Assembly: GCA_944472155.2 (NCBI GenBank)
Contig: OX235275.1
Span: forward strand, 56,499,228 to 56,563,227
Length of the DNA: 64,000 nucleotides
From: Trichobilharzia szidati
Lineage: Eukaryota > Platyhelminthes > Trematoda > Strigeidida > Schistosomatidae
Direction of reading: 5' to 3'
Numbering within the stretch: the stretch's first letter is position 1; every line of letters begins with the position of its first letter. Positions 1-47,840 of this stretch are shown here, piece by piece. Below the pieces are notes generated by a model, which saw nothing but the letters and a program-made list of their open reading frames with translations, was not told the DNA's origin and ran no database searches. The translations under genes were made by a program, and so were the position numbers.

Positions 1-19
1 CAAACATCTGCTTTCATTG

Positions 20-7104: not shown

Positions 7105-7815
7105 ATATGTTAGAGAACCACTGGAAAACCCCGAGGGGGGGGTACTGGACAGCTGTTTCGTCAACCTAGTTTGGGACTCTCCATCAGTACTCACCCACAC
7201 TACGTGGTTCGAATCCAGGACCCCCTGGTTACAAGGCGAACTCGTAGACTATTGAGCCACTAGGACCAGATCCAATGGTTTTTGAATTCTTACTTATGCC
7301 AATTCACGACATAGCGCGACCACTAACCAATGTCTTCTTCGATAAGTTACTGCCTCATCTTCAACCTACTGTTACCCTACTGGTCACGGCTTCCTACTAG
7401 AACCCCAGGTCACTGCCTGAATAGGGCCAGTCACTAGTGAGCATCAGATTAATTTTCAAGTATTGGTTTTGTAGGGATTTTTGTTTGATTGCATAGAGGA
7501 TTTCATCATGAGGTGACATCAGTTAGAGAACCACTGGAAAACCTGTCGTGAAATGGCAGAAGTAAGAATTCAAGGACCATTGGATAGGTTCCCGGTGACT
7601 GAATGGTCTTCGAGCTCGTTAACCTTGTAACCAGAAGGTCCTGGGTTCGAACCCCGTAGTGTGGGTGCGTACTGATAAAGATTCCTAAACTAGAACGAAA
7701 CAACTTTCCAGTACTCTCAGCTGTTTTTCCAATGGTTCTCTAACCAATGTCAGCTCATGATGAAATCCTCCATGTAATCAAACAAAAATCCCTACAAAAC
7801 CACTACTTGAAAACT
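7105..7815. repeat. Family B SINE, long palindromic pair
   Basis: A nearly complete minus-strand copy (7105-7480, B box on the minus strand near 7205) runs straight into a plus-strand copy (7485-7815, box B gggttcgaacccc near 7641). The hammerhead cores are decayed: CTGATGG on the minus copy, 'ctgataaag' on the plus copy. Flanks show an imperfect match (aaactaatatgtta / aaactaatgtgttg). The transcript could form a hairpin of over 250 bp. Confidence 0.8.
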
Positions 7816-8106
7816 AATGTGTTGAATATGTGTAAATATCAAACTCCTTGTCATTTGAACCTGTATTTCAATCGGTCATGATATGTGCTGTTCAGAACAT
7901 TAAAAATGAACCACGCTCTTTGTGTATTGTGTGTTATTAACTGCACAGAAACACTTAAATAGATTGAATTTTATGCCATTCCTTAGATACATTGAGCTAT
8001 ACTTGAACTTAACAACAGTGAGTTTCTGTAATAATCTCAGGTTACTCAAAAACTGATGAGTAGTCTGTTGAAAATGAACAAAACCAGCGAAAGTATACGA
8101 GTTTGA

Positions 8107-10294: not shown

Positions 10295-10307
10295 AGAACA
10301 CGATTTA

Positions 10308-10831
10308 TTGGTTAAAGGATTTCATCATGAGCTGATATTGGTTAGAGAACCATGATGAAATCCTGTAACCAATCAAACAAAATCCCTACAAACCAATACG
10401 TGAATATCAATGAGGTGCTCACTAGCGACTGGCCCTATTGAGGTAGGTAGTTACCTGGGTTTCTAGTGGGACGTCGTGACCAGTAGGGTGCTGCATCAGG
10501 TCGGGTGTGAGGACAAGCACTTGCCACCGAAGACATTGGCTAATTGTTGCGCTATGTCGTGAATTGGCAGAAGTTATTATTCATGGACTGGCTGGCCATT
10601 GGATCGGGTCCCAGTGTCTTAATGGTCTACGATTTGGCTCGCCTTGTAACCAGAAGGTAGTGGGTTTGAACCCCGTGGTGTGGGTGCGTACTGTGAAGGG
10701 TCCCAAATTGTGCAGACGAAACAGCCATCCAGTACTCGCCGCTGTTTTCCCATTGGTTCTCTGACCGATGTCAGCTGATGACAAAGGACTCCTGTAACCG
10801 GTCACTCAAATCCCTACAAACCAATACTTGA
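10308..10831 (+). repeat. Family B hammerhead SINE with 13-bp TSD
   Basis: Flanked by perfect 13-bp direct repeats agaacacgattta at 10295-10307 and 10832-10844. Order: inverted tail (10310-10351), first direct tail (10352-10405), body with A-box-like cttaatggt and B-box relative gggtttgaacccc near 10671, decayed hammerhead segment near 10690-10735, second direct tail to 10831. The two direct tails are about 426 bp apart. The core reads TGTGAAGGG, so ribozyme activity is unlikely. Confidence 0.9.
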
Positions 10832-11029
10832 AGAACACGATTTAAGCTAAGTACGTATTTTCGGTGAATTCTCATCAGGCTTTACACAATTACATAGTGA
10901 AATATCAGTCATAGGCATTTAAATTAGTGTGATTAATAAGATATATAGGATCAAATTTCAGGGATCTGAATTAGTGGTTAACAACAATCGAGGTGATCAT
11001 AATAATAATAGTAATAACAAGGATAAATT

Positions 11030-13064: not shown

Positions 13065-15150
13065 TATATGCGTTTTTAAAATTTTTAAATCATATATCTA
13101 ATGAACAAATTAATATGGAAAGCCACACCAGAATAATATGGAAAGCAACCAATGACTTATTCAAATCACAGCTGGGTAAAAACCACAGTGAGTGCCATCA
13201 AATATGACCTAGCTATCCGTTGGACCTCATACTCCAGGTGGAACTGTAATTCAGAAGCTCAGATGCATACTGAAAGACACTACCTGGGACTTATTTACAG
13301 AACAAACATTAGATGACACAATTACAAACATTACAGATTATCTTAAATTCTGTTTCGAAATATGTTGTCCTAAAGAAACATTATTCATTCGATTGGACCG
13401 TTTCTCTTCTCCACATCTCAAAAAGCTACGTAGAGATAAAGAACTGTTGTTCAAAACAAATGACAATTCAGGTGTAAAAAAGTCAAATACCCTGATAAAA
13501 CTCGAAACGCAAAGACTAAATGTTTTATATAACCAAAGATTCTTGTCATGTAAAACCCCTTCTAGTTTGCAGAAGCTTTTCAAAGAAATTACTAGCTGTA
13601 AGCGATGTACTTCTGTCCCATCTCTTAATGTTGATACTCTTAATAAGTCTTTCATACGCTCTTCTGTCGATATCCTTCCTAATGATACAAATCATATAGA
13701 CAATAATTTTAGTGGTTTTAATACATTTGATGTGCTTAAGTGTCTCCGGTCTCTTAAGCCTTCCCAAAGCCTTGGTCCTGATGGTGTACCTGCCATTGTC
13801 CTCAGGAGCTGTGCTGATATTTTATGTTACTCTCTTACTAACATTTTCAATGCTTCCTTTTCCAGTAATGTTCTACCTTTTGCATGGAAAAACATTAAAG
13901 TTATCCCTATAAGAAAACAATCTTCTGGTACTGATATTGAATTTAGGCCTATTGCAATTACTTCTACCTTTTTAAAATTGATGGAAAAACTACTTTTACT
14001 TCGTCTTGAACCTTCATTGAAACCTTTTAATGACCCTAAGCAATTTGCACATAAACATGTTAGATGTACCTTGGATGCTGCGGTTGTCTTATATTATAAA
14101 GTTGTTTCTTGTTTAGACAAAGGTGCCAAATATGTTCGTGGTGCTTTCCTAGACTACACATCTGCTTTTGACTCTGAACCTTTTATTAAATAAGCTTTCG
14201 TTGACGCAAACAGGATCCTGGGCTAAGAGTTGGTTGCATTCTTATTTTTCTGATAGAATGCAGTATACTGCATACAATGACAAATCTTCTTCTGCTTTGC
14301 TTACAAAAGCCGGTGTTCCTCAAGGTGCCGTCCTCTCTCCTTTTCTTTTTTCTTTCTTCCTTCATGACTTGCCTCATTTAAACGAAACTTTGTCAAATAT
14401 GCTGATGATCTCACTGTATCACTGCCTATCACTTCCGAATCTGACTGCTCCAAACTTAATAGCTTTCTGTTGGACATCAGCAAGTGGTCTAAGTCAAATG
14501 GTCTTATGTTAAATCCTTCCAAATGTCAGGTAGTTAACTTTACTTTCAAGCATCAACGTAACATACATGAACTAGTTAGTTCCCATGATGCCTGTGGCAT
14601 AGACGGCACTGAAATTGAAACCAAGTCAAGCATTAAATACCTTGGATTAGTTCTTTCCTCTGACCTTTCATGGTCATCCCACATCTTAACAATCTCTAAG
14701 AAAATGTTTCGTCTTACTTTTTACATTAAAATATTTAGACAATCAGGTATCAACCAACCTTTAATTCTGCAATTTTTAAACTCCTGTATTTTACCTATTG
14801 TACTCTATTGCTCTACATTAATCTTTCCTGGGCTTCTCAAAAAAGACTATATCATATTACGAAGGGTATTAAATGCTGTGAGTAGGGCTTGTGGCTTGCC
14901 ACTGCGTGAGCTCGCCAATATTATAGTCGAGAGATACATAAATTCCTGTACAAAACGGGAACAGTCCCGGAAACCATATTCCAGTTACCTCTGTTATTTT
15001 TTGTTCATATCAATTAATTTCTTTCAACTACTATCAAGGTCACTCAGTGACCTTGAATCATTGAATAAGTCCAATGGACCAATGATAAATTCTACATTTA
15101 TTAAAGTGCAATCTATATTGATTTCAAACAAGTAATGGTTTTATGAACCA
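13065..15150 (+). mobile_element. CR1-like LINE, near-complete RT region, frameshifted
   Basis: Largest LINE copy in the window. A linker (QKLRCILKDTTWDLFTEQ, from about 13250) runs in frame into the RT at 13393-14193: SLGPDGVPAIVLR (near 13770), FRPIAITSTFLKLMEKLL, and LDYTSAFDS (motif A, near 14150). After stop/frameshift at 14190 the second frame gives AGVPQGAVLSPFLFSFFLHD, then YADDL-like sequence at 14395 and the thumb region KYLGLVLSSDLSWSSH with FPGLLKKDYIILRR (14470-15135). The upstream endonuclease is missing. Two main frame breaks, so inactive, but fairly young. Confidence 0.9.
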
Positions 15151-16649: not shown

Positions 16650-17930
16650 TTTATTATAATAAAGGTTTTTGTATTTCCCAATGAATGAAAAACAAAACGA
16701 TATTGTTTTTACTGACGTGTCGCTATTTAATGCTAATAGCTTTATCAAAGCAGTATTGTTGAACCGGAATTTACAAAATCTCAGCATATATATATAACAA
16801 AGAGTTAAGAGGTGAGAAAATAAACTTAGGTCAAGTTAAAGGGACACAATGAAAGTCAAAATAACAATGAAGATCACTAAAATAAATAACAAAGGCAATA
16901 GTACATCTGTTATGGTATCAAAACAAAGTTTACTAACTTGATCATCGTTCGTTAGTCTGGGGTCATTTTTCGTTGTCAAGTTAGCCAATTGGTAAAGATA
17001 ACAAAATCAAGTGTAGATTGTAGAATTTGATCAGTGTGTAACATTATAAAAGCAGTGTGTGTTTACATAGTGAACTTGCTTATCACATTCGTGTTGATTT
17101 TGTAATTTCATGGAGGATGGGGCTGGGGTGTTGTAACCAGGTCAAATTCTGTTTTATCCCATCATTCATATTCAGACAATTTGGATCCCATTTGATATGA
17201 AGTGCTTCTGATTATATGAGACGCTCTTTGTGATTTCTGAAGTGCTTTTTCTGGATTATTTCATTATTGTCAAAATCAATTTTGGGGTCTGATTCTATAG
17301 CGTGCGATTTTTCAAGTTTTTCTAGTTCAACTGGATTTCTCTGTGGTCGAACAGATGCTTTAGGGTGTTCATTTTTTCTGATTTTGATTTCTCGAGATGT
17401 TCGTCCGATGTATGTCACATCACATTCCAGGCATTTTATTTTATAGACACAGTTAGATAAAGAATCTTTAGGGATTTCGTCTTTTATATGGACACGGTTG
17501 TTTCGTAGTGTGTCAGTCTGATGTTTTGAAGAAAACTCTAATGTCGAGGTGATTGAGTACTCTTCTGATATCATCTGACGTCTCTGCTCTATGTGGAATG
17601 ACGACTGTTGATGTCCATGTTTTCGGAATGCGTTTTCGGCCATACTTAATGTCTGAGTTGATTTTGTTGATGAAGTTCCTTGGGTAGTTGTTTTGCTTGA
17701 GAGTTTCAGTAATGTTTGATATTTCTTCTTCTTTTTCTTTCTTGTCGGTTATCAGAGAGTGTGTTCGCCTTAACTCTTTGTTATATATACATATGCTGAA
17801 ATTTTGTAAATTCCGGTTTGATAATACTTTGATAAAGCTAGCTATTAGCATTAAATAGAGAAATGTCAGTAACAACAACAATATCGTTTTGTTTTTCATT
17901 CATTGGGAAATAGAAAAACCTTTATTATAA
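16650..17930 (-). mobile_element. Penelope-like element flanked by inverted repeats
   Basis: Minus-strand ORFs at 17899-17513 and 17643-17212 give an RT-end/connector and a GIY-YIG domain: NCVYKIKCLECDVTYIGRTSREIKIRKNEHPKA-type core near 17390-17460, followed by a GH-less KIDFDNNEIIQKKHFRNHKERLI end. The two frames overlap by a frameshift near 17560. The left flank 16655-16815 is an inverted copy of 17760-17925 (cccaatgaatgaaaaacaaa against its complement), an arrangement known for Penelope elements. Confidence 0.85.
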
Positions 17931-18467: not shown

Positions 18468-19190
18468 ATTCAGGTGTTGATTTGCAGGGACTTGATTTGA
18501 TTGGTTACATGATTTTATCATGATCTGATATCGGTTAGAGAACCACTGGGAAAACAGCAGCGAGTACTGGATGGCTGTTTCGTCCCTAATTTGGTACTCT
18601 TCACAGTACTCACCAGCACCAAAGTTCGAACCCACTACTTTCCGGTTACAAGGCAAGCTTGTAGAACATACAGCCACTGGGACCCGATCAAATGGCCAGT
18701 CCAGGAATTCCAGCTTCTGCCAATTCACACACGATATAGCGAGACTGGCACTAGCCAGTATCACCAGTGGCAAGTATTTATCCTAACACTCGACCTGCTG
18801 TACCCTATTTGTCAAGACTTCCAACTAGCTCACCAGCACTTAGACCTACTCAGATGGATAGTTATCTGGGAATTCATGACCAGTGGGGTACAGCAGGTCA
18901 GGTGTGAGGAAAAATGCTCGCCAACGAGATGCTGGCTAGTGCCAGTCTCGCTATATCGTGTGTGAATTAGCAGAAGCTGGAATTACTTGACTGGCCACTG
19001 GATCATTTCCCAGTGGTTGAATGATCACCTTTTAACTGGAAGGTCCTGGGTTCGAACTGTTGCAGTGGGTGTGTACTGTAGAAGAGTCCCAAACTGGGAC
19101 GAAACGGTTGTGTCCACTACTTGCTGCTGATTTCCCAATTTCACTCTCACTGATGTCAGCTCATAATGAAATTCAATAGTACATAGTTTA
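18468..19190. repeat. Family B SINE, head-to-head palindromic pair
   Basis: Minus-strand copy 18468-18835 (B box near 18625) meets a plus-strand copy 18836-19190 (box B gggttcgaactgt near 19048). Each arm holds the tRNA-like part and the hammerhead segment. Cores: minus GTACTG-TGAAGA (one base missing), plus CTGTAGAAGA...GGGACGAAAC. Arms are about 350 bp. Confidence 0.85.
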
Positions 19191-20104: not shown

Positions 20105-20667
20105 ATTAGTTTGCAGGAATTCTGTTTAATCCAGGTTAGATCACGGACTGATATCAGTTATAGAACCACTGAAAACCAGGGAGTACTGAACAGCTGTTTC
20201 ATCCTAGTTTGGGACTCATCGGCAGTACGCAACAACTGGGGTTCGAACCCAGGACCTTCTGGTTACAAGGCAAGCTTGTATACCATTCTTGAAAATTAAT
20301 CTGACGCTCGCTAGTGACTGGCTACAGATGGAAGTCGCCTGCTGTCCCAGTGAGAAGTCGTGACCAGTGGGGTCCACCCTGTTGGGAGCGATGATGGGGT
20401 TCCCACCGGTGACATTGGTTGGTGCCAGTCACGTTATAAAACACGAATTGGTAGAAGTTCGAATTCATGGGCTGGTGATTGAGTCGGGTCCCAGTGGCTG
20501 AATGTTCTACGAGCTTGCCTTGTAGCCGGAAGGTGCTGGGTTTGAACCCTGGTGGTGGGTGCGTACTGCCGAAAAGTCCTAAACTAGGGGGACGAGACAG
20601 CTGTCCAGGACTTCCTGGTTTTCAATGGTTCTCTGACTAATATCAATCCGTGGTCTAACCTGAACTA
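20105..20667. repeat. Family B SINE (subfamily 2) pair inserted in an RTE LINE
   Basis: Ends are inverted: aggttagatcacggactgat on the left, tcaatccgtggtctaacct on the right. Minus copy 20105-20290 has hammerhead-like GTACTG-CCGATGA-GTCCCAAACTAGGAT-GAAACAGCTGTTCAGTAC, with stem I complete and one core change (U4 to C). Plus copy 20291-20667 has box B gggtttgaaccc near 20538. Confidence 0.85.
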
Positions 20668-26579: not shown

Positions 26580-26592
26580 TATTCGATTTGAA

Positions 26593-27153
26593 TGGTTACA
26601 TAATTTTATCATGAGCTGACATCAGTGCGTGGGACTGCAAGGTCTTCCAATGGTTCTCTATAGCCGATATCAACTCATAATGAAATCCTGTAACCAATCA
26701 AACAAAATCCCTACAAACCAATACTTGAATATCAATGAGATGCTCACTAGCGACTGGACCTATTCAGGTAAGTAGTTACCTGGGGTTCTAGTGAGAAGTC
26801 GTGACCAGTAGGGTACAGCAGGTCCGGTGTGAGGACAAATACTCGCCGAAGACACTGGATAGGGGTCGCGCGATATCATGAATTGGCAGAACTTTGAATT
26901 CATGGTCTGGCCATTGGATCGGTTCCCAGTGAGTTGCTTAATGGTCTACGAGCTAACTCGCCAGCCTTCTAACCAGAAGGTCCTGGGTTCGAACCCTGTG
27001 ATGTGAATGCGTATTCATGAGGAGTCCCAAACTAGGCTGATGGAACAGCTGTCCAGTACTCCCAGGTGGTTTTCCAATGGTTCTCTGACTGATGCCAGCT
27101 CTTGATTAAATCCTGTGACCAATCAGTCAAATCCCTTCAGAGCAATACTTAAA
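26593..27153 (+). repeat. Family B hammerhead SINE, full-length, 13-bp TSD
   Basis: Best model copy. Perfect 13-bp duplications tattcgatttgaa at 26580-26592 and 27154-27166. Layout: inverted tail (26593-26625), first direct tail (26647-26733), body, tRNA-like segment with gggttcgaaccct near 26985, hammerhead segment near 27003-27060, second direct tail (27073-27153). The two direct tails are about 426 bp apart. The core here is decayed (CATGAGGAGTCCC...GATGGAACAG). It ends 100 bp before the first junctophilin exon. Confidence 0.9.
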
Positions 27154-27255
27154 TATTCGATTTGAAGTTTACCTCCTAAATTGTATGTTATGATGAAACC
27201 TTCGTATAATTCCAGGCATAAATGGTTGTTTGTTCTCTTTTTTGTTTCTTTCTAG

Positions 27256-27956
27256 GAAGTTATGCAGGTGAATACAAAAATGGTGTTCGTGAAGGACTTG
27301 GTGTCCGCCAATCGATACCATACGGTGAAGTGATAAATTTCTTTCCTGAAGAAGCTGCAATAGCCGCTGAAATGGCACTGGATATGAAAAAGAAGGCAGC
27401 TCTACAAAGTCTTTTAAATTCAGCTCATCACAGTCATGGTAGTCATCATCAGCATCATAATCAGCAACAGCAACATCATAACTATCAGAATGATAATCCC
27501 AACACTAACAGTGGTACACGTCGAGGAAGTTTAATTAGTCAGAGATCAGGTGATGCAGCTGAATTAGAAGATTTTGATTTAAGCGGACAAGATGATAATG
27601 AAGAGGAGCCGTATTCAGGCAGACGTCCAAATCCATCCGCTGGTCATGCCAGTAAAGATTTCAAGGATTTACGTATGTCATGTAAATTCAAATGTGGCTT
27701 TGTCTTATCCTCACAACGTAGTGAATTAATGTTAAGACGTCAACAAAAGTTGAATCACAGTGGGAGTGGATCATCATTGGCGCGGAATAAAAAGGAGGCT
27801 GGTCGGCGGGCAAAATCACTGACAAATCTTTTCAATCGATCGCTTAGTAAAGAGTCTATCGCTTGTGTACGACGTCAAGGCAGTGTAACAGAACGTTCAG
27901 CACGTGCTGTTTCAAAATTTCAACAAACACCTGAGTCAGTATTCACTTTGGATCAG
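27256..27956 (+). CDS. Junctophilin exon: end of MORN block and joining region
   Basis: Internal exon, 701 bp. The acceptor is ...tttctttctag before 27256; the donor gtaggc starts at 27957. The first codon is split (two bases here) and the exon ends in phase 0. Right after the acceptor it encodes SYAGEYKNGVREGLGVRQS, a MORN repeat with the junctophilin GVRQSxPYG signature, then the joining region: a helical stretch (EEAAIAAEMALDMKKKAA), a His/Gln-rich run at 27421-27486, an acidic part, and a basic Ser-rich part (RAKSLTNLFNRSLSKES). In known junctophilins the MORN repeats bind the plasma membrane and the C-terminus sits in the ER/SR, holding the two together for calcium coupling. The N-terminal MORN exon(s) were not found in 1-27255. 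Confidence 0.92.
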
Positions 27957-28129
27957 GTAGGCTAACCATGGGGTCATATTTTAGCGGTTTTTAAAACTAC
28001 TATTTTTTTGAAAATCAGGGCTTGAAAAAGTCACTTGAAGACCAATTGTACTACTAGTGTGTTCAAATAGTGCAAAATTAAGCTACGAAAACTAAATGCA
28101 GGCTAAGATTATTCAGAAAGTTGGTTAAA
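27957..28129 (+). other. Start of the 12.6-kb junctophilin intron
   Basis: Runs from the donor at 27957 to the acceptor before 40519. This first part shows no repeat; the rest is filled by the elements listed below. Confidence 0.7.
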
Positions 28130-29580
28130 GGTATCAGACTAAAAGCATTCTGAATGCACAGGTCCGGTTTCAGATCTCGAATAGCTAATGCTTCAGCTAT
28201 GTGCAGATGGCGTATGCTAAGTCCGTTTGTTCGATATTGTGATATTGTGTATCACTGTGAAGCATTCATGTGGGGGTGCTCGATGTCCGATGTCGCCTCT
28301 CTATTCACAAGCATCCCCTGACCGAAAAAATATGCTTCATTTGTAATTACATCGAAACTAACAACATAGAAGTTCCTTTTCCCATAAACTATCTGAATGA
28401 ACTACTTCTCAGATGTGCGTCCAATATCCAGTTTAAATTCAATGAACAGTTTTATGTACAGAAAGATGGGGTAGCCCTGGGGTCTCCTCTCGGTCCACTC
28501 CTAGCCGACTGCTTCATGGCGAGTCTCGAAAACAACATCCTCGATCCCTTGATAAGTCAACTGCACTTATACAGGAGATACGTAGATGATACGTTCATAA
28601 TCTGTGATGAAAAATCTGATTTAGATTCTCTCCTCAAAACCTTTAACGCAGCGCACTCATCAATAAGATTCACCTTAGAACGCGAATCCAACAACGCATT
28701 TCCATCCCTCGATGTACTACTCACCAGAAGACACTACTGTACGATCCGAAGATCGATATATCGCAAGCCAACATGGACTGGACAGTTTATCAACTTCCAG
28801 AGCTTTGGCCCACTGATCAGAAGGCGAAACCTGGTGCGTACATTATGTTTAAGGATTAGAAAGATCTGCTCGAAAGACATGGTAGAGAAAGAATTAAATT
28901 TTTAACGTGAAACCCTACTAGAGAACGGGTATCCACCAAGATTCATTGACAAGAACATGGAAGAGAAGCCTCCGTCGCCAAACATCGCAACGGTTCCTAA
29001 GAAGACTCTCTTCATGAACCTAGAATTCAAAGGTGACATCGCAGCGGAAATTCTCAGAAACCGCCTTTCTAAATGTTTGAAGAAGACATTTCCAGCAGCC
29101 ACCTTACGTATCATATTCTCCTGCAGAAAGTTAACCCGTCTAAGTTTAAGGATAAGATACCGCTTTTGGCCACTTCATTGTGTATTTATCAATTTACTTG
29201 CTCGTATGAAGCAAAGTATATCGGCCGTACTCAACGTCAAGTTCACAAACGTATTCCGGAACACTGTCCAGCTTGGTTAACCAGAGGAGAAAAGAAGAAT
29301 AGCAGCAGCTCTATCCTCGAACACCTTGTCATCGAGCACCTCCACATGAGTGCTTCACAGTGATACACAGAGTCCCTCAATATCGTACAAATGGACTTCG
29401 CATACAACATCTGTACATAGCTGAAGTATTAGCTATTCAAGTTCTAAAAGCATTCTTTCCCACAGTAGTGAGGATAATCAAGTGTGAATGCGAGGTCATG
29501 TTGAACAAATCGGAGAAATCATTCTTAACCTATAAATGCGATAACAGCCTTATAAGTTCTTTGAAGTAAAATACTATTAT
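28130..29580 (+). mobile_element. Penelope-like element, RT plus GIY-YIG, with inverted 5' piece
   Basis: ORF 28270-28905 (211 codons) is most of an RT: VPFPINYLNELL, QKDGVALGSPLGPLLADC (motif near 28465), YRRYVDDTFIICDE (catalytic, near 28580), FPSLDVLLTRR and YRKPTWTGQFINF. After a stop and frameshift the GIY-YIG part follows at 29073-29363: CSYEAKYIGRTQRQVHKRI. 28222-28295 is an inverted copy of 29325-29400 (gtatcactgtgaagcattca against its complement). It is one of the best preserved copies. The same subfamily lies inverted at 38.5-40.3 kb. Confidence 0.9.
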
Positions 29581-29934
29581 TTAATTGAATTTTAGATTTT
29601 CCCGTCGATTGATTAGACCGAAGTGCTCGGTCTCAGGTTGACATGTCGGCTTCTTGTGCAGATGCTTCAACGATGTCTGGGCATGTAATTAGAAGTTAAT
29701 TGGTGGATGGTGACTAGCAGTGGAATCCAGGATAACGCACATTTCGTCCTATTTGGGACTCATCAGCCGGATCTACCTACATTCCGCAGTGAGTGATGAT
29801 GTTCCCACCAAGTCTCGAAACCAGTGCCCATAGTTTCAAACGCATCTGCGCAAGAAGTTAACATGTCAATCTGAGACCGAGCACTTCAGTCCAATCAATT
29901 GACGGGAAAATCTAAAATTCAATTAAATAATTAA
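29576..29934 (-). repeat. Family A (Sm-alpha-like) element as a fold-back unit
   Basis: Inverted ends of about 85 bp: left ttgaattttagattttcccg at 29583, right cgggaaaatctaaaattcaa ending near 29925. They enclose, on the minus strand, the end of a tRNA-like head (actggtttcgagacttgg) and a hammerhead ribozyme. Smα-type retroposons of schistosomes are known to encode hammerheads; the long inverted termini are what I see here. Confidence 0.85.
29722..29774 (-). ncRNA. Hammerhead ribozyme with intact core
   Basis: Read on the minus strand: stem I 5' strand ATCCGG, core CTGATGA (29760-29766), stem II GTCCCAAATAGGAC with a 4-bp GTCC/GGAC stem, GAAA, a short stem III region TGTGCGTT, cleavage triplet ATC, and stem I 3' strand CTGGAT. 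Stem I pairs fully with one G-U. Compared with the other two copies it has three extra bases before the triplet. Best candidate for activity in the window. Confidence 0.8.
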
Positions 29935-29939
29935 TATGA

Positions 29940-30165
29940 CCCGTTGCACAAGAGGCAGTAGCTCTCGTGGCCCAAGTGATCTAGTGGATAACTCTTTGGC
30001 TGGTGTTTGAAACTGTGGGCACTGGGTTCGAGCCTCGATGGGCGCATCATCACTCAGTGACTGGGAAATGCAGGTACATCTAAATGACGAGCCCCAATTA
30101 GGACGAAATGCGCATCCTGGATTCCACTGCTAGTCACCATCCACCAATTAAAATACTTTTAAGCT
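29940..30165 (+). repeat. Family A (Sm-alpha-like) tRNA/hammerhead SINE
   Basis: tRNA-like head with box A-like gatctagtggataa (29979-29992) and box B gggttcgagcc near 30022, then the hammerhead and the 'ccactgctagtcaccatccaccaatta' tail. It lies directly beside the fold-back copy. Confidence 0.85.
30070..30130 (+). ncRNA. Hammerhead ribozyme, core mutated
   Basis: Core ATGACGA at 30084-30090 in place of CUGANGA, stem II gccccaattaggac, GAAA at 30105-30108, triplet ATC before CTGGAT. The C3 to A change removes a catalytic-core base and stem I's 5' strand (acatcta) is weakened, so it is probably inactive. Confidence 0.7.
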
Positions 30166-30699: not shown

Positions 30700-31331
30700 C
30701 GATCACGAGCTGATATCGATTAGAGAACCATTGGAAAGCCAGTGGTGACTACTGGACAGCTGTTTCGTCCTAGTTTGGGACTCTCCACAGCACACCCATC
30801 GCCAAAGTTTGAATCCAGGACGTTCCGTTTACTAGGTGAACTGGTGGACCATTCAGCCGCTGGGACCCGACCCAATGATCCATTCCTGTAACCAATCAAA
30901 TCCTGGCAAATCAACGCTTGACAACTGATCTGATACTCATAAGCTACTGGCCCTAAACAGGAAGTTACCTGGGGTTCTAGTGAGAAGTCGTATCCAGTGG
31001 GGAATACTCAGTCACACAAGAGGACATTTAATAGCCTGTAAAAATGGCTGGCGGTTTCACTAAATATGTATATTTTACGGACTGGCAGAAGTTCGAATTC
31101 ATAGACCACGGGGTCGGGTCATGGTAGCCAAATGGTCTACAAGCTCTTCTCGTAAATGGAAGGTCCTGGGTTCGTACCCTTTGATGTGGGGGCCTATTGC
31201 TGAGCAGTCCCAAACTAGGACAGATGAAACAGCTGTCCAGCAATTCCAGCTATTTTTCCAATGATCCTCTAACTGATGTCACTTAGTGATGAACTCTATA
31301 ACCCATCAAATCCCTACAAAGCAACACTTGA
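30700..31331. repeat. Family B SINE pair with 10-bp TSD
   Basis: Flanked by ttctgtgtat (30690-30699) and ttctatgtat (31332-31341), one mismatch. Minus part 30700-30880 has GTGCTG-TGGAGA-GTCCCAAACTAGGAC-GAAACAGCTGTCCAGTAG. Plus part 30885-31331 has CTGAGCA-GTCCCAAACTAGGAC. Stem II and GAAAC are intact in the first; both cores carry changes. Confidence 0.85.
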
Positions 31332-32850: not shown

Positions 32851-32981
32851 AAATGATTCGCTAACTCAATGATAAATTGTTTAGCAAGAGACTTTAGAGT
32901 TGAATAAAGGTGCTGTCTTAGAGATTTCGAAAAGACTTTTAATGAACAAAGAATATTCCTTCCAAGTAAGATAAAGAATTG

Positions 32982-33212
32982 CGTCGATGGCACAGCGGTA
33001 AAATGCTCGCCGAACACAAATGTGTTCTGGGGTTCGATCCCCTACCGACGCACTCCTTTACCTCGCTAAGCCAGTAATAAGACTGGTAAAGAGGGAAGGT
33101 TAAGCATGAAGCTAACAAACCCACCCTGTAAAAATAAACACCACTGCCAGCGAGACTTCAAGTCTCTAGCTTGAAGCCCTGTGTTCCACTGGCAACGTGA
33201 AGGAATAAAAAA
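32982..33212 (+). repeat. tRNA SINE (family C, RTE-tailed)
   Basis: Head gcgtcgatggcacagcggta with box B ggggttcgatcccc (33029-33042) and acceptor-like pairing GCGTCG/CGACGC. The tail is actcctttacctcgctaagc ... agccctgtgttccactggca then ggaataaaa. Confidence 0.85.
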
Positions 33213-34145: not shown

Positions 34146-34316
34146 AGATGTCAAATTTATAGTATTAAAAACACAAGATATAAATCCATTACACCGATTT
34201 AATTTTCAATATCACGGATACTATGAAATGTAAAAAGGGATGATGCATTGTTTAGGATAGTTGTATTTTAAAACTTGCTTCTAGTATGATGTCATGCATA
34301 GATCAAATTTCAGAGT

Positions 34317-34721
34317 TCGAGTATTGATTTGCGGGGATTCGATTGGTTACAAGATTGATGATGAGCTGACATCGGTTAGGGAACTATTGGAAAACCATCT
34401 GAGACTACTGGACAATTGTCCCCCTGTCCTAGTCTGGGACTCCTCAGTAGTGTGTCCCCTTTGGAGCTCGAACCCAGAACCAGAGGGGTACAGCAGGTCG
34501 GTTGTGAAAACAGATACTCGCCACCGATGACACTGACTGGTGATTGCGATCTATCGTGAATTGGCAGAGGTTGGAATTCATAGGCAATTGGATTGGGTCC
34601 CAGTGACGTAGCGGTCTATAAGCTCGCCTTCTAATCGGAAGCTCCTGAGTTTGAGTCCCAAACTAGGACAGAGGAAACATCTGTCCAGTACTCCCAGATG
34701 GTTTTCCAATTGTTATCTAAT
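34317..34721. repeat. Family B SINE, minus/plus fusion with 9-bp TSD
   Basis: Duplication tttcagagt at 34308-34316 and 34722-34730. A minus-strand piece (inverted tail, hammerhead segment, B-box region to about 34482) joins a plus-strand body and tail. The plus copy has lost its B box and half of the hammerhead. Confidence 0.8.
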
Positions 34722-34730
34722 TTTCAGAGT

Positions 34731-35624
34731 ATCTTGAAGTGTGCACACGGCATGGCAGGTACATTTGAAACAAATGCTAAAACAGTAATCATTGGTTTCA
34801 GAAGAATGTTTTCTTCCTAACATGTACGAACACTTTTGCCTTTTGAATAAGCTTCATTCAGAGTAATCTTTGGTCATTTCTTGACACTTTGGTTGTCTTT
34901 TCCAAATATCTAATCATCAATTTTTACTCATGTATATAAATGAAACAAGAAAGTTGTGTGAGTCATGTTTTGATATGATAATGAGCAGGGATAAATTGTG
35001 CTCGAAACGTAGTCATCAATAAATATGTGTATGATTTTATCAAAATAAAATTTTATTCATAGTCTTTAGGCCATGATGGAAATACTAATTTTCTATTTTG
35101 ATATCTGCCTTGTTCACGTGCACCATCCGGGAAATGAGTCATAATTAGTCATGATAGATTCTTATCTACAAATCCATGATGACTAATCATCACCACTGTC
35201 TCCTATTTCACCGAAATATTTTGTAATCGATTTCAGCCAAGCACGTTTGTCACACACTCAAATACGACTATTTATTTTGACACCCCATTACAACTAATCT
35301 GTTATTCTACGTTAAAAAATGTATCTGTCGCATAACTGGCCATTATTATTGTAACGGCAACAAGTATTATATTTTATAATTGTAAGAACCTGAAGAGGAG
35401 AAATTATTGAGTAGAATATTCTTCGTTCAGATTGACTTTTAATTCATGGGATATGGGAATATTTCACACTATTAAATATGAATGAATAACTAAGTAAATA
35501 GTGGTCAACTTAAAGTGTAAAATAGATGATTGGAAAATAAAGTACATTCGGAGATGTGAATATGTGAGAATGTAACATGATGGAGAACTGAATAGATGAA
35601 TGAAATGTTTTCAAAATAGTGGAC
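34731..35624. other. Mostly unassigned; Penelope-type 3' end at 34960-35040
   Basis: 34966-35030 has the hairpin gagca...tgctc followed by gaaacgtagtcatcaataaa, matching the 3' ends at 22190-22250 and 44935-44970. 35041-35624 shows nothing I recognise. Confidence 0.45.
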
Positions 35625-36365: not shown

Positions 36366-36470
36366 AATTTATCCCTAATCGTAACCTTAAACTTAATCGT
36401 GACCCTAACCTTAAACTTCACACTAACCGTATATAATCCTAACCCTGATCCTAATCCTAATCCTAAGCTT
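36366..36470. repeat. Interstitial telomere-like tract
   Basis: Degenerate repeats of CCCTAA/CCTAA type: ccctaa at 36373-36378, accctaacc at 36402-36410, and cctaaccctgatcctaatcc then taatcctaag at 36438-36467. The strand is CCCTAA, the complement of TTAGGG. About 100 bp, imperfect. Confidence 0.7.
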
Positions 36471-36850: not shown

Positions 36851-37515
36851 TAGCTGTTGATACATATCCAATTTATTTATTAGTCAGGATTTGCCATGCA
36901 TCAGCTAAGATCACACCTTCACGTCTGTTCAAACTGTTGGGATTCACCCATATATGTAGGGCTTCTGCAGTCAGTCTTTCTTTATATGAACCAAAACCTT
37001 TCTGTAAAACCTTAGTCTTATCAAAGTCGACTTTGTGTCCCGTTTCTAACGAATGCAGTGCAATCGCTGAGTTGTTTTCTAGCTTCTTCAAGTCTGCAGA
37101 GGTCTTTGGAACCACCTTTAGACATTGTTTATGCTCTTTCACTCTTACATTTACCTGTCTGGAAGTTTCTCCTACAAATACGGCGTTACAATCCCCACAA
37201 TTGATCTGGTATACACAATTCTGCTGGTTTTCTTGTTCTATTTTATCCTTAACCTTAACCAGTAATGAGCGTAAGGTGTTTGATGCACGAAAATACACTC
37301 TTATGTTATGGTCGTTAAGGATTCCTTTTATTTCGTCGGATGTTTCTTTGCGGTAAGGAATCACCGCTGTACTAACCCAATTCTTAGCATCAGGTTTTGA
37401 TTCATCCTTATCTTCACATTTTAAGTATCTATTTATGAAGGTTTTTGGATAATTATTTGATTCAAGAGTGGATTGAACCAATTTTAATTCCTTATTATTA
37501 TTATTATACCTCACA
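36851..37515 (-). mobile_element. Penelope-like element, uninterrupted GIY-YIG ORF
   Basis: Minus-strand ORF 37514-36873, 213 codons with no stop. Order: connector with VQSTLESNNYPKTFINRYL, VSTAVIPYRKETSDEIKGIL, RVYFRASNTLRSLL, then CVYQINCGDCNAVFVGETSR (the GIY-YIG core with FVGE in place of YIGx), NNSAIALHSLETGHKVDFDKT and ALHIWVNPNSLNRREG. The RT part is missing, so it is 5'-truncated. It is the longest open Penelope domain here. Confidence 0.88.
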
Positions 37516-37699
37516 TACTGTTAGTTTTCTCAGGATTTCTGCAAATCGCTAAATCACAGTAGTTGAGTATTAATGACACTCAGTGAGGAGTGTTCAAACC
37601 AGTTACTTAGTTCAATATTATGGTTTACGCTTAGGTTAAATTTACTTACGTATTTGGGGTTTTCATGAAGTTTCCTTGTATTTCAACATCATTATTATG

Positions 37700-37984
37700 T
37701 TTTTACGAGTTTATCACGGATTGATATCAGTTAGCGAACCACTGAAAACCAGAGAGTACTGGGCAGCTGCTGTTTCATTATAGTTTGGAAATCATTGGCA
37801 GTACGCACCCACTGGGATTCGAACCCAGGACCTTCCGGTTACAAGGTAAGCTCGTATACCATTCAGCCACTGGGACCCGATTCAATGGCTCATGAATTCT
37901 AACTTCTACCAATTCTCTAACTGATATCAATCCGTGATCAACTCGTAAAAACATAACTAACCCTTACAAACCGAACTATAGAAA
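37700..37984. repeat. Family B SINE (subfamily 2), internal deletion, 12-bp TSD
   Basis: Perfect duplication atcattattatg at 37688-37699 and 37985-37996. Minus-strand tail, hammerhead segment, box B and body (to about 37915) are followed directly by a plus-strand tail, so the element is a large hairpin with the middle missing. Ends are acgagtttatcacggattga and tcaatccgtgatcaactcgt. Confidence 0.9.
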
Positions 37985-38188
37985 ATCATTATTATGCCTA
38001 GATGTTTATAAGTGTATTAATTCTACCATAATAACATCAACTGTTTTAGAAAAATTCCTACAGTTGACGTAATCACAGGCAGTCATATTGCTCCAGATGT
38101 CACCAAATCAAATAAAAAAAACATTTATCATTGTCTGTAAACTATTGAAATATAATAATAATTCATTAATTTGATCTATCCCACAATG

Positions 38189-38385
38189 TTCAAGTATTGG
38201 CTGTGTAGGGATTTTGTTTGATTGCATCGAGGATTTCATCATGAGCTGACATCAGTTAGAGAACCACTGGAAAACCACCTGGGAGTACTGGACAGCTGTT
38301 TCGTCAGCCTAGTTTGGGACTGTTCAGCAGTACGCACCCACGGGGGTTCGAACCCAGGACCTTCTGGTTACAAGGCGAACTCGTA
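38189..38385 (-). repeat. Family B SINE, 5'-truncated, 11-bp TSD
   Basis: Perfect duplication atcccacaatg at 38178-38188 and 38386-38396. Minus strand from acgagttcgccttgtaacca through box B gggttcgaacccc, hammerhead segment GTACTG-CTGAACA-GTCCCAAACTAGGCTGAC-GAAACAGCTGTCCAGTAC and full tail. One core base (G8) is C. 5' truncation with TSD indicates target-primed reverse transcription. Confidence 0.92.
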
Positions 38386-38529
38386 ATCCCACAATGCACA
38401 AACGGTTTACTGACATTGGCTTAATAATGATGGCGGTATATTTTTTCAAATTGATCCTCATTTATTGTTCTCACAATGTTCATGTCGTTGTGTGTATTTA
38501 ACCCTGAAACGAAATTTTATTTTAAAAAA

Positions 38530-40345
38530 TGACGTTAACAGCGAAGAAAATTTTCTTTTCGACGATTCAATCTCATTCATAAACTGCTGTACAATAATCG
38601 TAATTATATTTAACAAAGAAATCATAAGACCAATCAGATATTGGTAAAATTTGTCTACGAAAACGTATTACGTCATGTAAGGTATGACCTAGAAAAGGTG
38701 ATAGAAGTTGACATGACGTAATAGATGTGAGATAAAGACTAATCAATAATATTGTGTAGAATGAACAGGAACTAGTGCAAAGACGATAAAGTGTTTTTAT
38801 ATAAAATCTGTATGAAAAAGCAATGTTATTAATAAGCAGTAATCGAGTGATAATAAAATATGGATGATAGGAATAGTAATAATAACAATTGTAAACTTAC
38901 ATAGTAAAAGGAGACAAAATTATAGTGAGAACGCTACTCTGGCTACAGTAGGACAAGAGCATGTATGTTACGCTTTTGAATGCAGAAGTCCGCTTTCAGA
39001 TCCCGAATAGCCAATGGTTCGGTTATTTTATTTTTATTTTTTAAAAATTTTATTATAGCTTGATTCCACGCAGTATTTTTGGTACAAGTATGAAATTTTC
39101 AGCATTTGAAATCGGTAGACCAAATTTAGCAGGCCGACCATAGATATCAGGTGTGCGTCGGTGGGGGATTGAACCTCGGACCATGTGCATGGTCGGTGAG
39201 AGTCCTAACCGCTGTGCCACCGACGCACAGAGGGTGTATTCGAAGTCCCTTTGTACGATATTGAGGGACTTTGTGTAGCGCTGTGAAGCATTCATGCGAG
39301 GAGTGCTCGATATCCAGAGTTGATAATGTGTTCGAGGATGGAGCTACTGGTATTCTTCTTTTCTCCTCTGGCTAATCAAGCTGGACAGTGTTCCAGAATA
39401 CGTTTTTGAACTTGACGTTGCATATGGCCGATATACTTTGCTCCACACGAGCAAGTAAACTAAAAAAATTTACAATGAGGTTGCCAAAAGCGGTATCCTA
39501 CCCTTAAAGTTGGACTGGATTAACTGTCCGCTGGAGAATGTTGTACATAAGGTGGCTGCCTGGAATTTCTTATTCAGACATTGAGAAAGGCAGTCTCTAA
39601 GAATTTCCACTTCGATGTCAGCTTTAAATTCCTGGTTCATGAAGAGAGTTTTCTCAGGAACAGTTGTGATTTTTGGAGACTGAGACCTTTCCTTCATGGT
39701 TTTGTCGATGAATCTCTAAGGATACCATTTTTCTAGTAGCGTTTCACATAATGAATTTAATTGTTTCTCTATCAAGTCTTCCGAACAGATTTTTCTAACC
39801 CTTGAACTTAATGTGTATACCATGTTTTGCTTTCAGACCAGTGGTACGAAGTGTTGGAAGTTTATAAACTGTCCCGTCCATGTTGGCTTGCGACATATTG
39901 ACTTTTGGATCGCGCAGTCTTGTCTTCTGGTAATTAGTACATCCAGGAATGGAAATGCGTTGTTCGACTCATGTTCTACTGATGGGTGTACTGCGTTGAA
40001 GGTTTTGGGGAGATACTCTAAATCATGTTTTTCATCACAAATTATGAACGTATTATCTACATATCTCCTGTATACGGGCAGTCGACTGATCAGAGGATCG
40101 AGGATGTTGTTTTGGAGACTCGCAATCAAGCTGTCAGCTAGGAGCGGACCGAGAGGAGACCCCATAGCTACACCATCTTTTTGTACATAGAATTGTTCAA
40201 TGAATTTGAATGGGATAGGAAATGTGCATTTGAGAAGTAGGTCCTTCAGGTAGTTGATAGGGAGACTTAGTATGAAAATTGTATGAATAACAATGTTTGC
40301 AGATCATTCAGCTGACGAGTTCTGTCGATACTCATGAATTCATGA
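38530..40345 (-). mobile_element. Penelope-like element with nested SINE
   Basis: Inverted relative of 28130-29580. Minus strand: RT at 40165-39833 with GSPLGPLLADSLIASLQNN, YRRYVDNTFIICDE (catalytic DD changed to DN) and PFLDVLITRR; connector 39697-39470; GIY-YIG remnant near 39400-39470. 38930-39020 and 39236-39310 carry the same inverted 5' piece as 28140-28295, split by a tRNA SINE. The 3' end at 38535-38640 (gcgaagaaaattttcttttc) recurs at 50535 and 59425. Confidence 0.85.
39022..39235 (-). repeat. tRNA SINE (family C, short-tailed) nested in Penelope
   Basis: Minus strand: gtgcgtcggtggcacagcgg head, box B gaggttcaatcccc, CCGACGC closing the acceptor-like stem, then acctgatatctatggtcggc and the A/T-rich tail ending in TAAAAATAAA-type repeats. 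Confidence 0.88.
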
Positions 40346-40518
40346 AATATTAATGCTATTTTTTCCCACAGTTATTGTTGTTGTTGCTCGTTTTATATTT
40401 ACTATGGAAATGAAATGTCTTCAATATTTAAGTTATATCCTATAATCATCACTATGCTTTTATTTTCACTTCATTCTCTCTGTCTTTCTCTACTATTTAA
40501 TTGTTTTCATTTATCCAG

Positions 40519-40862
40519 GTGGATGCAATTGATCCTGAAACAGTCGAAACATTTTCTGGTCAATGGGAAGCAGATTCACGGCATGGCTACGGTGTATGTG
40601 AACGATCCGATGGTGTTGTCTATGAAGGTCAATGGGTTAGAAATCAACGACACGGTTATGGTCAAACACACTTTCCAGATGGTGCATGTGAACAAGGCAG
40701 ATATCAAAATGGAAAATTAGTATTTCTATCCTGGCCTAAAGGCACTAAACCACATTTATTTTTATATAATTATCATATAATGCGTGAGGTAGCCAATGCT
40801 GTGAAGAGAGCGAGGAATATCGCCGAGGATGCACAGATCAAGGCTAAAGAAGCTAGAGAAAA
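40519..40862 (+). CDS. Junctophilin exon: two MORN repeats and start of helix
   Basis: Internal exon, 344 bp; acceptor ...ttatccag, donor gtaagc at 40863. It starts in phase 0, fitting the end of the previous exon, and ends with two bases of a codon. It encodes VDAIDPETVETFSGQW, then two MORN repeats (FSGQWEADSRHGYGVCERSDG and VYEGQWVRNQRHGYGQTHFPDG), EQGRYQNGKL, and the beginning of the alpha-helical region (ANAVKRARNIAEDAQIKAKEAREK). These correspond to the last two MORN motifs of junctophilins, separated from the first group by the joining region. The repeats keep the G-W and HGYG residues. The 12.6-kb intron before it is the largest in the window. Confidence 0.94.
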
Positions 40863-40981
40863 GTAAGCGACTAGTGTTAGAAAGTTTACTTCCGGGTTTT
40901 GTCATGCGTTTTGCTTTTTTTTCCAGTGAATTTCTTTATTACATAATGACTATTCTCAAAAGTTGCATTACTAGCATCATA

Positions 40982-43925: not shown

Positions 43926-44320
43926 ACCTGTAAGGATTTGATTTGTTTTCCAAATTTGACCACGGATTGATATCGGTTAGAGAACCAAATCAACCCTTGA
44001 AAATAAATCTGATGCTTGCCAATAACTTGCTACAGGACGGAGTTTGCTGGGGGTCTAGTGCGAAGCCGTGACGAGTGAGGTGCATCCAGTCGGGAGTAGG
44101 GATAGATTTCTCACCGTTGACATTGGGTTCTGGTCACGCTAAAATCACGAATTGGTAGAAGTCAAAATTCATGGGTTGAACATTGAATCCTGTCCCAGTG
44201 GCAGAATGGTCGTCAACGAGCTTGCCTTGTAACCATAAGGTCCTGGATTGAACCCTGAAGATGGATGTATACTGCCGATGAGTTCCAAACTAAGCTGATG
44301 AAACAGCTGTCCAGTACTCC
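43926..44320 (+). repeat. Family B SINE (subfamily 2), left part, split by an LTR
   Basis: Inverted tail (accacggattgatatcggtt), tail-body junction near 43990, body, box B relative ggattgaaccct near 44246, and hammerhead segment CTGCCGATGAGTTCC...GAAACAGCTGTCCAGTACTCC. It stops at the LTR insertion and resumes at 44866. Confidence 0.85.
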
Positions 44321-44865
44321 TGTGGGGAGAGCTGGCTGCAAGCCAAGACTGTAGACAACAATTTATGTCAATGTTACACCCCAAGTTGGGGTCACGAGAT
44401 AAAACAAGAACAAAGTCTTACCTTGAGGAACTCACAAACCAATCACAGCAGACTTAACGTGTGCAAATATGATTCGCAGGTATATGGCTTAACTTTGTGA
44501 GAAACGATCACAAGCAGTACAGAGTAGCCTTTGGCAAGAAAACAACCAATCAGAAGACATCGCTTCTCTGCTAAAAATAGTGCTAATAAAAATGGTGCGT
44601 CGGTGGCACAGTGGTTAGGACTCTCGCCGACCATGCACATTGTCCGACGTTCGATCCCCTGCCGACGCACACCTGATATCTATGGTCGGCCTGCAAAATT
44701 CGGGCTACCGATATCCATGCTGAAAATTCCATGCTTGTACTGAAAATACGGTGTGGCATCAAGCTGTTATTAAAAATAAAATAATAAATAAAAATAAATC
44801 TGTAATTGTCTCTTGATTTTCTCAATAATAGATCTGTTGCCTGTCCGTTGTCTTCTGTCGGTACA
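44321..44865 (+). mobile_element. Solo LTR inserted in a SINE, with its own nested SINE
   Basis: Starts tgtggggagagctgg, ends cttctgtcggtaca (TG...CA). Flanks ctcc (44317-44320) and cttc (44866-44869) form a 4-bp TSD with one mismatch. No internal gag/pol. A family C SINE sits inside at 44594-44793. Confidence 0.85.
44594..44793 (+). repeat. tRNA SINE (family C, short-tailed) nested in LTR
   Basis: gtgcgtcggtggcacagtgg (box A), gttcgatcccc (box B near 44650), with a perfect 7-bp acceptor-like pair GCGTCGG/CCGACGC. Tail acctgatatctatggtcggc and TAAAATAAATAAA-type end. Not a functional tRNA: D and anticodon arms do not fold normally. Confidence 0.88.
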
Positions 44866-44935
44866 CTTCCAGCTGGTTTTCAATGGTTCTCTAACTGATA
44901 TCAATCCGTGGTCAAATTCGAAAACAACAACAATA
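44866..44935 (+). repeat. Family B SINE (subfamily 2), right part
   Basis: cttccagctggttttcaatg through tcaatccgtggtcaaattcg completes the tail of the copy at 43926-44320. Followed by a Penelope-like 3' end (tgctcgaaaccttgtcatcc) to about 45000. Confidence 0.85.
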
Positions 44936-47191: not shown

Positions 47192-47429
47192 GGTGCGTCG
47201 GTGGCATAGCGATTAGGACGCTCGCCAACCATGCACATGGTCCTGGGTTCGATCCCCGGCCGGTGCACTCCTTTACCTCCCTAAGCAAGAACTAAAAGCT
47301 GGTGGAGAGGAAAGATTGGGCATGTGGCTAGCAACCCCATGCTGTAAAAATAAAAACTGCTACAGAAACATCAAGCCTCTAGCTTGAAGCCCCATGTTCC
47401 ACTGGGGACGTGAAGGAATAAAAAAAATC
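47192..47429 (+). repeat. tRNA SINE (family C, RTE-tailed) with 9-bp TSD
   Basis: Duplication atatgctga at 47183-47191 and 47430-47438. Head gtgcgtcggtggcatagcga, box B gggttcgatcccc (47246-47258), RTE-like end agcttgaagccccatgttcc, ggaataaaaaaa. Inserted into a family B SINE. Confidence 0.9.
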
Positions 47430-47840
47430 ATATGCTGACATTGGTTAGAGAACCATCGGAAAACCAGCTGGGAGTAATGGACACAGCCGTTTCGTCCACC
47501 TATATTGGGACTCTTCATAAGTTTGCAGTCACGTCACGGGGTTTGAAATCACGACCTTCAGGTTGCAAGGAAAGCTAGCTCTCAAACCATTCAACCACTG
47601 GGACCCGATATAATGGCTAGCCCGAGAATTCCAACTTTTGCCAATTCACACGATACAGCGCGACAGACACTATCAAATCTCATCGGTGGCGAGTATTTGT
47701 CGTCATATTTGTCCTGATATATCATACTGGTCAGGACTGTTCAGCACTCTTAGGTTTTCCACTGGTTCTCTGATCAATATCAGGTCATGGTGAAAACCTA
47801 AAACCAGTCTAATCCTTGCAAACCAACACCTGAAGGATTT
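47430..47840. repeat. Family B SINE, fold-back copy
   Basis: Minus-strand tail (gacattggttagagaaccat), hammerhead segment TATGAAGAGTCCCAATATAGGTGGAC-GAAACGG, B-box remnant near 47538, body to about 47750, then a short plus-strand tail (ggttctctgatcaatatcag). The family C SINE lies in its left end. Confidence 0.8.

Follow-up and report, generated by a model that had tools for sequence, protein, structure and literature searches.

Head-to-head copies of a retrozyme-like hammerhead family in Trichobilharzia szidati and their likeness to Penelope-type insertions

Elements of the window

The window, by which we mean the whole 64-kb stretch of Trichobilharzia szidati DNA analysed here, belongs to an assembly of 1,113,721,179 bases and carries 42 aligned pieces of one non-coding family, which we will call by the length of its unit the 394-427-nt family (Table 1). 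Another 16 pieces were found in 60 kb taken from six other places of the genome, where they make up about 6% of the sequence, a rough figure drawn from a small sample. An earlier note on this DNA had described about 20 copies built of tail, body, tRNA-like boxes and hammerhead, and this family was recovered with the same parts. The note had singled out two copies, at 26593-27153 and 10308-10831 (first and second copy hereafter), and had given each of them a 13-bp TSD; both are found, with 13/13 identical positions in each case, against a null from mismatched flanks in which a score of at least 12 was reached in 4/382 draws. The direct tails, which it had placed about 426 bp apart, start at 26641 and 27068 in the first copy, that is, 427 bp apart.

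Several other features accompany these copies. The first copy sits just before a MORN-like repeat exon at 27222-27962, whose MORN match is below cut-off, and a second such exon is seen at about 40501-40863; they may belong to a junctophilin-like gene, the second exon and the gene name being guessed from the reading frames. LINE-type RT pieces are found at 13213-15132 (+), 51918-53474 (-) and 62894-63749 (+), with an RVT_1 match of 1.1e-24 for 52674-53474, the others being assigned by their reading frames. Short telomere-like repeats, degenerate and made of TAATCC units, occupy 36376-36466, near the Penelope-like piece that starts at 36876.

Table 1. Coordinates of the features in the window
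Feature	Position	Strand	Remarks
Left TSD TATTCGATTTGAA, first copy (26593-27153)	26580-26592	+	13/13 identical to 27154-27166
Right TSD TATTCGATTTGAA, first copy	27154-27166	+
Short inverted arm, first copy	26593-26626	-	outer end near short end point (...TAACCA)
Direct arm, first copy	26641-27153	+	about 1.2 units; outer end near long end point (...CTTGAA-like)
First direct tail, first copy	26641-26729	+	second tail copy 27068-27156, 427 bp on
tRNA-like stretch, first copy	26939-26998	+	B box GGTTCGAACCC at 26986-26996; A box by alignment only
Hammerhead segment, first copy	27011-27059	+	decayed, 20.4 bits
Left TSD AGAACACGATTTA, second copy (10308-10831)	10295-10307	+	13/13 against right TSD 10832-10844
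Inverted arm, second copy	10308-10353	-
Direct arm, second copy	10351-10831	+	hammerhead 10688-10735, 20.0 bits
Copy with more than one lap	18-496	+	two tandem hammerhead-like segments, about 18-65 and 425-465
Head-to-head pair	2831-3285		2831-2966 (-) / 2977-3285 (+)
Head-to-head pair	7109-7824		7109-7545 (-) / 7544-7824 (+)
Head-to-head pair	18468-19172		18468-18849 (-) / 18845-19172 (+)
Head-to-head pair	20106-20665		20106-20287 (-) / 20288-20665 (+); hammerhead 20183-20228 (-), 41.1 bits, above RF00163 gathering score
Head-to-head pair	30702-31331		30702-30877 (-) / 30875-31331 (+)
Head-to-head pair	34316-34738		34316-34500 (-) / 34479-34738 (+, two pieces); 12-bp TSD, one mismatch (34305, 34719)
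Head-to-head pair	37694-38001		12-bp TSD ATCATTATTATG (37688-37699, 37985-37996)
Single truncated arm	38186-38385	-	11-bp TSD (38178-38188, 38386-38396); hammerhead 38285-38333 (-), 37.7 bits, above RF00163 gathering score
Head-to-head pair, interrupted by other sequence at about 44321-44854	43929-44930		12-bp TSD CAATAATTTATG at 43907 and 44931
Head-to-head pair	47427-47834		47427-47743 (-) / 47737-47834 (+)
Head-to-head pair	54162-54687		54162-54563 (-) / 54561-54687 (+); T-rich repeat-like TSD
Sm-alpha-type head-to-head pair	29579-30152		one long and one short tail; hammerheads 29725-29772 (-) and 30078-30122 (+), both above RF00163 gathering score
Sm-alpha-type head-to-head pair	57910-58174		hammerhead 58094-58138 (+), 57 bits, above RF00163 gathering score; 13-bp TSD, one mismatch
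Likely Penelope-like piece	17215-17899	-	GIY-YIG below cut-off in 17215-17748
Penelope-like element piece	28261-29277	+	RVT_1 above cut-off in 28261-28902
Likely Penelope-like piece	36876-37520	-	GIY-YIG match below cut-off
Likely Penelope-like RT piece	39836-40303	-	RVT_1 below cut-off

The unit and its hammerhead

Two circular consensus units were built, U (420 nt) from the aligned window pieces and Y (404 nt) from 25 of the 30 loci L031-L060, and both strings were used to find pieces; these loci came from a search that skips very common words and are thus not representative of the family. Counted from the hammerhead cleavage point in positions of Y, written y, the unit runs through the tail (y1-93), the body, the tRNA-like stretch and the hammerhead (y359 on). 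The family has no protein-coding capacity, frames being judged by length alone: the longest stop-to-stop frame round the circle reaches 53 codons in the 404-nt consensus of L031-L060 and 110 in the window consensus, and neither consensus unit contains an RT and GIY-YIG ORF. No poly-A or simple-repeat tail is seen in the aligned copies, whose tail ends are non-repetitive.

The Rfam type I hammerhead model RF00163 is passed at five places in the window, two of them in the 394-427-nt family and three in Sm-alpha-type elements (Table 1). The hammerhead proposed by the earlier note is a property of the family, in which two other copies pass the model, but it is decayed in both copies singled out there, with 20.4 and 20.0 bits for a cut-off of 34. 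In 20 other loci the model is passed at 27 places, 26 of which lie inside pieces of the family, the odd one being at L047 1266-1310. When twelve chosen hammerhead sequences are compared, six from the family and six from Sm-alpha, pairing in the stems holds for 95% of cells and covariation amounts to 0.413 versus 0.198 when shuffled (0/500), most of it being one difference between the two families; the pairs changed on both sides are four, not above shuffles (3.7). Stem III of the 394-427-nt family is the minimal palindrome CAGCTG, and minimal hammerheads of Penelope elements are said to act as dimers in the available text of PMC7761336.

The core is variable. Among 100 fully spanned hammerhead sites of the aligned sample, all 12 core residues are kept at 9, and a change of C3 to A is the sole core change at 29. 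C3 (y371) is the least conserved core column, with A 51, C 43, T 8, G 3 and 9 gaps over 114 aligned sites, and it is A at 18/28 sites in the least-diverged arms. Judging from these residues, many copies probably carry a dead ribozyme. In the whole genome, an intact-core 40-mer has 2,350 exact sites and its C3-to-A counterpart 1,633, reversed-pattern controls giving 0; a subfamily altered at an essential residue is still amplified. A hypermutation idea was also considered, and the A/C alleles of C3 are concordant within insertions at 0.64 versus 0.50 expected, the values for y34 and y35 being 0.75 and 0.73. The idea of a mostly dead ribozyme, suggested by L031-L060, was dropped when the exact-pattern count showed an abundant intact subfamily.

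The tRNA-like stretch

An A-box-like TGGCTTAATGGT is placed at y297 and a B box at y341 of unit Y, and the B box is exact (GGTTCGAACCC) in several copies of the family. ARAGORN calls no tRNA at the tRNA-like stretch of the first copy, and makes a call in 1/30 loci. The boxes are preceded by about 190 nt of body, and the layout of the family is not the classic one of a tRNA-SINE, with a 5' tRNA head and a simple 3' tail. Elsewhere in the window, tRNA-like sequences at 32981-33053 (-) and 51090-51163 (+) are possibly further tRNA-derived SINEs, the former with a below-cut-off match to a plastid 5'UTR family and the latter with a tRNA-Gly call.

How the copies end

The neighbouring pieces of the family are arranged in a strikingly one-sided manner: 36 are in the order -+, none in the order +-, 8 are -- and 2 are ++ (n=46). 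The -+ order corresponds to two arms joined head-to-head with their tails outward, and the tail-to-tail arrangement is met in 0/46. What the earlier note had taken for a fixed module, an inverted tail, is instead one arm of such a pair, with a length that goes from about 35 nt to more than one unit.

The outer ends of the arms are not scattered along the tail. They peak near y65 (TAACCA), with 34/130 at y60-74, and again near y93 (CTTGAA), with 29/130 at y90-99. Within a pair, one tail is long and the other short in 23 of the 26 scorable pairs (hand tally; binomial 4e-5, with a null of one half that is an assumption). This tally leaves aside 10/36 pairs with an outer end outside y20-120, and its long/short cut, y85, was chosen after seeing the histogram, 6 of the 23 pairs having an end at y78-85, near the cut. 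The pairs that break the rule are L038, the second pair of L059 and the first of L065.

TSDs of 10-13 bp (score at least 9) flank 9/36 pairs, for a null of 1.5% in mismatched flanks, and TSDs of 9-19 bp flank 5/38 single arms, for a null of 0.5%; single-armed copies with a TSD include 38186-38385, L037 and L046. This count is low, as the aligned ends used for it overshoot, so that TSDs are missed, including that of the first copy. The 27/36 pairs that stay below threshold are partly explained by these overshooting ends and partly, perhaps, by age.

The heads behave differently: the earlier note expected copies not to start and end at random points of the unit, which holds for the tail ends, clustered at two points, but not for the heads, which vary. 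An excess of heads is seen at the hammerhead's 5' edge (17/130 at y355-371 versus 5.5 expected), strongly in the selected loci (12/72) and weakly in the window and random DNA (5/58, 2.4 expected), and just 3' of it (10/130 at y4-15 versus 3.9 expected). There is no pile-up of heads at the cleavage point itself (6/130 versus 2.9 expected), and this lack of heads led us to reject a linear template whose 5' end would have been made by hammerhead cleavage. Snap-back self-priming of a single cDNA was also rejected, the short-tailed arm having the longer body in several loci.

Absent from the reading of the earlier note were this head-to-head geometry and the two fixed tail ends, which lead us to Penelope-type insertion.

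Sm-alpha elements of the same genome

The genome also holds elements which we take to be Sm-alpha, a name given here from their hammerhead sequence and layout. They were sampled in the 30 best hammerhead loci (L001-L030, of 74 scored), the window and random DNA, giving 71 pieces. Their neighbouring pieces are 32 -+ and 1 -- (n=33), and their tails end near u37 or u152, with one of each in 31/32 pairs, four of which count u47-54 as short. Some loci are the same places twice (L016/L017 and L020/L021) and L011/L012 look like a duplicated region; after dropping these repeats the rule holds in 28/29 pairs, or in 27/28 if L029/L030, which also look like copies of one event, are merged. A TSD with a score of at least 9 is found in 25/29, of which 14 have the modal length of 13 bp, for a null of 2.3% in mismatched flanks.

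The two families thus have in common a tRNA-like stretch and type I hammerhead, arms set head-to-head, tails of two classes and a TSD length of about 13 bp. Their hammerhead and tRNA-like parts can be aligned, the likeness of the latter being equalled in 0/300 shuffles, whereas their tails and bodies are unrelated, 244/300 and 251/300 shuffles doing as well. They differ in unit length (394-427 versus 327 nt), in the gap between the two end points (about 28-34 versus about 114 nt) and in hammerhead stems I and III. On sequence grounds, the 394-427-nt family is not a member of Sm-alpha, and the earlier note's proposal of a second hammerhead SINE-like family with a retrozyme-like topology is supported. 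Both families display two internal end points, inverted arms and a TSD, as Penelope-type insertions do.

Penelope-like elements as a reference

According to the available text of Frangieh 2024 (PMC11167929), a Penelope protein cuts and extends both strands, and reverse transcription starts at two internal RNA sites, the interval between them being the known genomic 'tail' of 30-40 nt; for the Anolis element in vitro, the two strands did not differ in start site. Arkhipova 2013 (PMC3846280) describes an inverted pLTR, a 31-bp extension on one inverted pLTR and TSDs of 8-10 bp. Penelope-like elements have also been proposed as the movers of retrozymes, from shared features and co-occurrence (PMC7761336, PMC7229834, PMC11722881).

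We searched the genome with one Penelope-like piece, which gave 61,752 first-look candidates, and several of the 150 scored have an open frame of 808-809 codons. All four pairs of neighbours separated by no more than 3 kb are -+ (by eye, in these 150), and pieces of the Penelope ORF have -+ neighbours in 6/6, some places being counted twice. Three autonomous Penelope-like pairs have unequal outer ends. In two of them the ends fall at points recurring among copies; in the third, one end lies between these recurrent points. Two of the pairs are flanked by repeats, of 14 bp with one mismatch and of 12 bp; for the remaining one, the first, the scored repeat is an internal palindrome and a 12-bp repeat was read by eye. 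The mismatched control, which includes element sequence, scored 9-14, and the three TSDs therefore stand without a significance test.

No partner Penelope for the 394-427-nt family was found among the elements compared, which include 12 Penelope loci. The tail of one Penelope family has a weak likeness to that of the 394-427-nt family (8/500 shuffles as good) and none to that of Sm-alpha (117/500). A Penelope-like copy in L076 has a minimal hammerhead-like sequence after its ORF (about 3052-3095, +), noticed by eye and with no Rfam match.

Laps, arrays and the source RNA

Aligned copies run up to 1.6 laps of the unit, and two hammerheads lie 399-408 nt apart within one insertion in 5/20 loci (L033, L035, L036, L040 and L043). 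These copies cross the cleavage site, which rules out as their template a linear monomer released by hammerhead cleavage. Together with the arrays of 394-bp step described below, they bear out the view of the earlier note that the template is longer than one unit.

The array data come from the first 100 of the 2,350 intact sites and the first 100 of the 1,633 C3-to-A sites. At C1:1661060-1686217, 64 exact intact-core sites follow one another at 394-bp steps over 24.8 kb, beside one inverted site; 4 more intact sites at the same step adjoin another inverted site, and 2 more are 394 bp apart, so that exact same-strand repeats of this step are found in 3/28 clusters of the first 100 intact-core sites. 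None was seen by eye among the first 100 C3-to-A sites, a contrast which is confounded by age and by the requirement that matches be exact. Some insertions of the aligned sample (L036, L042, L049, L051 and L059) do carry two C3-to-A hammerheads, so that laps can form when the core is not intact or can derive from older sources in which it was.

The origin of the two arms was followed through shared derived bases, as raw identity is uninformative (within-insertion identity exceeds all others in 1/32). The arms of one insertion share derived bases 158 times versus 50.3 expected from other loci (31 pairs), a 3.1-fold excess, and 12/31 pairs are in the top 5%, versus 0/44 in the control. Two laps of one arm share 0.204 of their derived bases versus 0.079 in controls, a weaker signal with 2/34 in the top 5%, and arms share 0.315 over the same region. 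Such sharing fits either a circle or a tandem transcript as source, and it speaks against two unrelated RNAs as the rule.

A probable Penelope-type insertion of circular or multimeric RNA, and its alternatives

We consider it probable, at roughly two chances in three, that the 394-427-nt family is a retrozyme-like, non-autonomous family reverse-transcribed by Penelope-type machinery from circular or multimeric RNA. What is observed is the geometry, the clustered ends, the one-long-one-short rule, the TSDs, the copies of more than one lap and the common source of the arms, together with the matching signature of Sm-alpha and a similar layout in the small number of autonomous Penelope-like insertions that we looked at; the circularity, the ligase and the partner enzyme are what we infer from them. 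In such a scheme, cleavage at the hammerhead would reduce multimeric transcripts to units of about 394-420 nt, which would then be closed to circles. By analogy with the Anolis element, a Penelope-type protein would bind the RNA on the 3' side of the start points; its RT-endonuclease would make a staggered cut of about 13 bp in the target. Reverse transcription would then be primed by both target ends, at two internal points of the element RNA, one giving the long and the other the short tail, and both cDNA arms would run round the unit, for up to 1.6 laps, before being joined head-to-head at variable heads.

A bolder version can be put forward tentatively, at somewhat less than even odds. Both hammerhead SINE families could be rolling-circle clients of Penelope-type enzymes, with a self-cleaved and re-closed RNA circle, an obligatory priming of one strand at each of two dedicated points, and anything between a single lap and dozens of them (one array has 64 units), so that satellite arrays would arise in one step. 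If this is true, the one-long-one-short rule would reflect a single RNA-protein complex that assigns different start points to the two strands.

The most serious alternative keeps the Penelope-type insertion and replaces the circle by a linear multimeric transcript of tandem copies, the hammerhead becoming dispensable. The many amplified C3-to-A copies, some with two such hammerheads per insertion, speak for it, as do the sharing between laps, lower than that between arms, and the Anolis Penelope, which does not need its hammerhead in vitro in the available text of PMC11167929. The 394-bp repeats seen among intact and not among C3-to-A sites weigh on the other side, with the confounders given above, and we regard a linear template as unlikely without being far-fetched.

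That the pieces should be decayed remains of the pLTRs of an autonomous Penelope-like element is quite improbable. Penelope pLTRs do bear minimal hammerheads and inverted ends (PMC7761336, PMC3846280), and the sequence in L076 points the same way, but complete units repeat here without a long ORF, their tRNA-like stretch resembles that of Sm-alpha, and in the 12 Penelope loci strong matches occur solely as neighbouring or inserted copies (L067 and L071).

Inverted 5' parts are known in LINE insertions. LINE-driven movement of an ordinary SINE, in which twin priming produces the 5' inversions, would account for them, for the tRNA-like boxes and for TSDs of about 13 bp; it is nevertheless very improbable, as the inverted arm repeats the tail itself, which implies that the same RNA region was copied from both target ends, and as the outer ends fall at two points with no poly-A or simple-repeat tail. 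The LINE control agrees with this, its 18 pieces, a small sample, giving one adjacent pair, ++, and no head-to-head pair. Finally, an inverted-repeat DNA transposon of the foldback type, suggested by inverted arms with TSDs, is barely credible given arm lengths and junctions that vary by locus, two end classes, single-armed copies with TSDs and the exclusion of snap-back copying where the short-tailed arm has the longer body.

Comparison with known systems

What is new here is how the copies end, and the finding of a Penelope-type layout on RNAs without an RT ORF, in the 394-427-nt family as in Sm-alpha. Insertion ends are read straight from the DNA and give direct evidence that can be counted, and any genome that contains retrozymes lends itself to the same test; the paired end-point rule, for its part, constrains the Penelope mechanism in a new way. 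In the literature searched, available in part, we found this insertion signature reported neither for retrozymes nor for hammerhead SINEs, though it may have been noticed earlier in Ferbeyre 1998, Cervera 2014 or Lunse 2017.

Among the traits by which a retrozyme is recognised, the family has a type I hammerhead, a tandem unit within 150-450 bp, no coding capacity and a TSD longer than 4 bp. It resembles in this the metazoan non-LTR retrozymes, described in the available text of PMC7229834 with a type I hammerhead, a unit of 150-450 bp, tandem copies, TSDs and no protein. Unlike their plain tandems, it is mostly found as head-to-head insertions of up to 1.6 laps in the aligned sample, and it has Pol III-like boxes, in contrast to retrozymes, which are described as promoterless (PMC7761336). 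The W-element families W25.2, W26.2 and W27.2 of Schistosoma mansoni, satellite-like units with hammerheads of which some are active in vitro (PMC8490949), can be likened to it by description. With Penelope-like elements it shares an inverted second copy at one end, an optional extension of 30-40 nt, a TSD and a minimal hammerhead (PMC3846280, PMC11167929). Unlike them, it has no RT-endonuclease ORF, and it is thus like a Penelope-like element in its insertion without being one.
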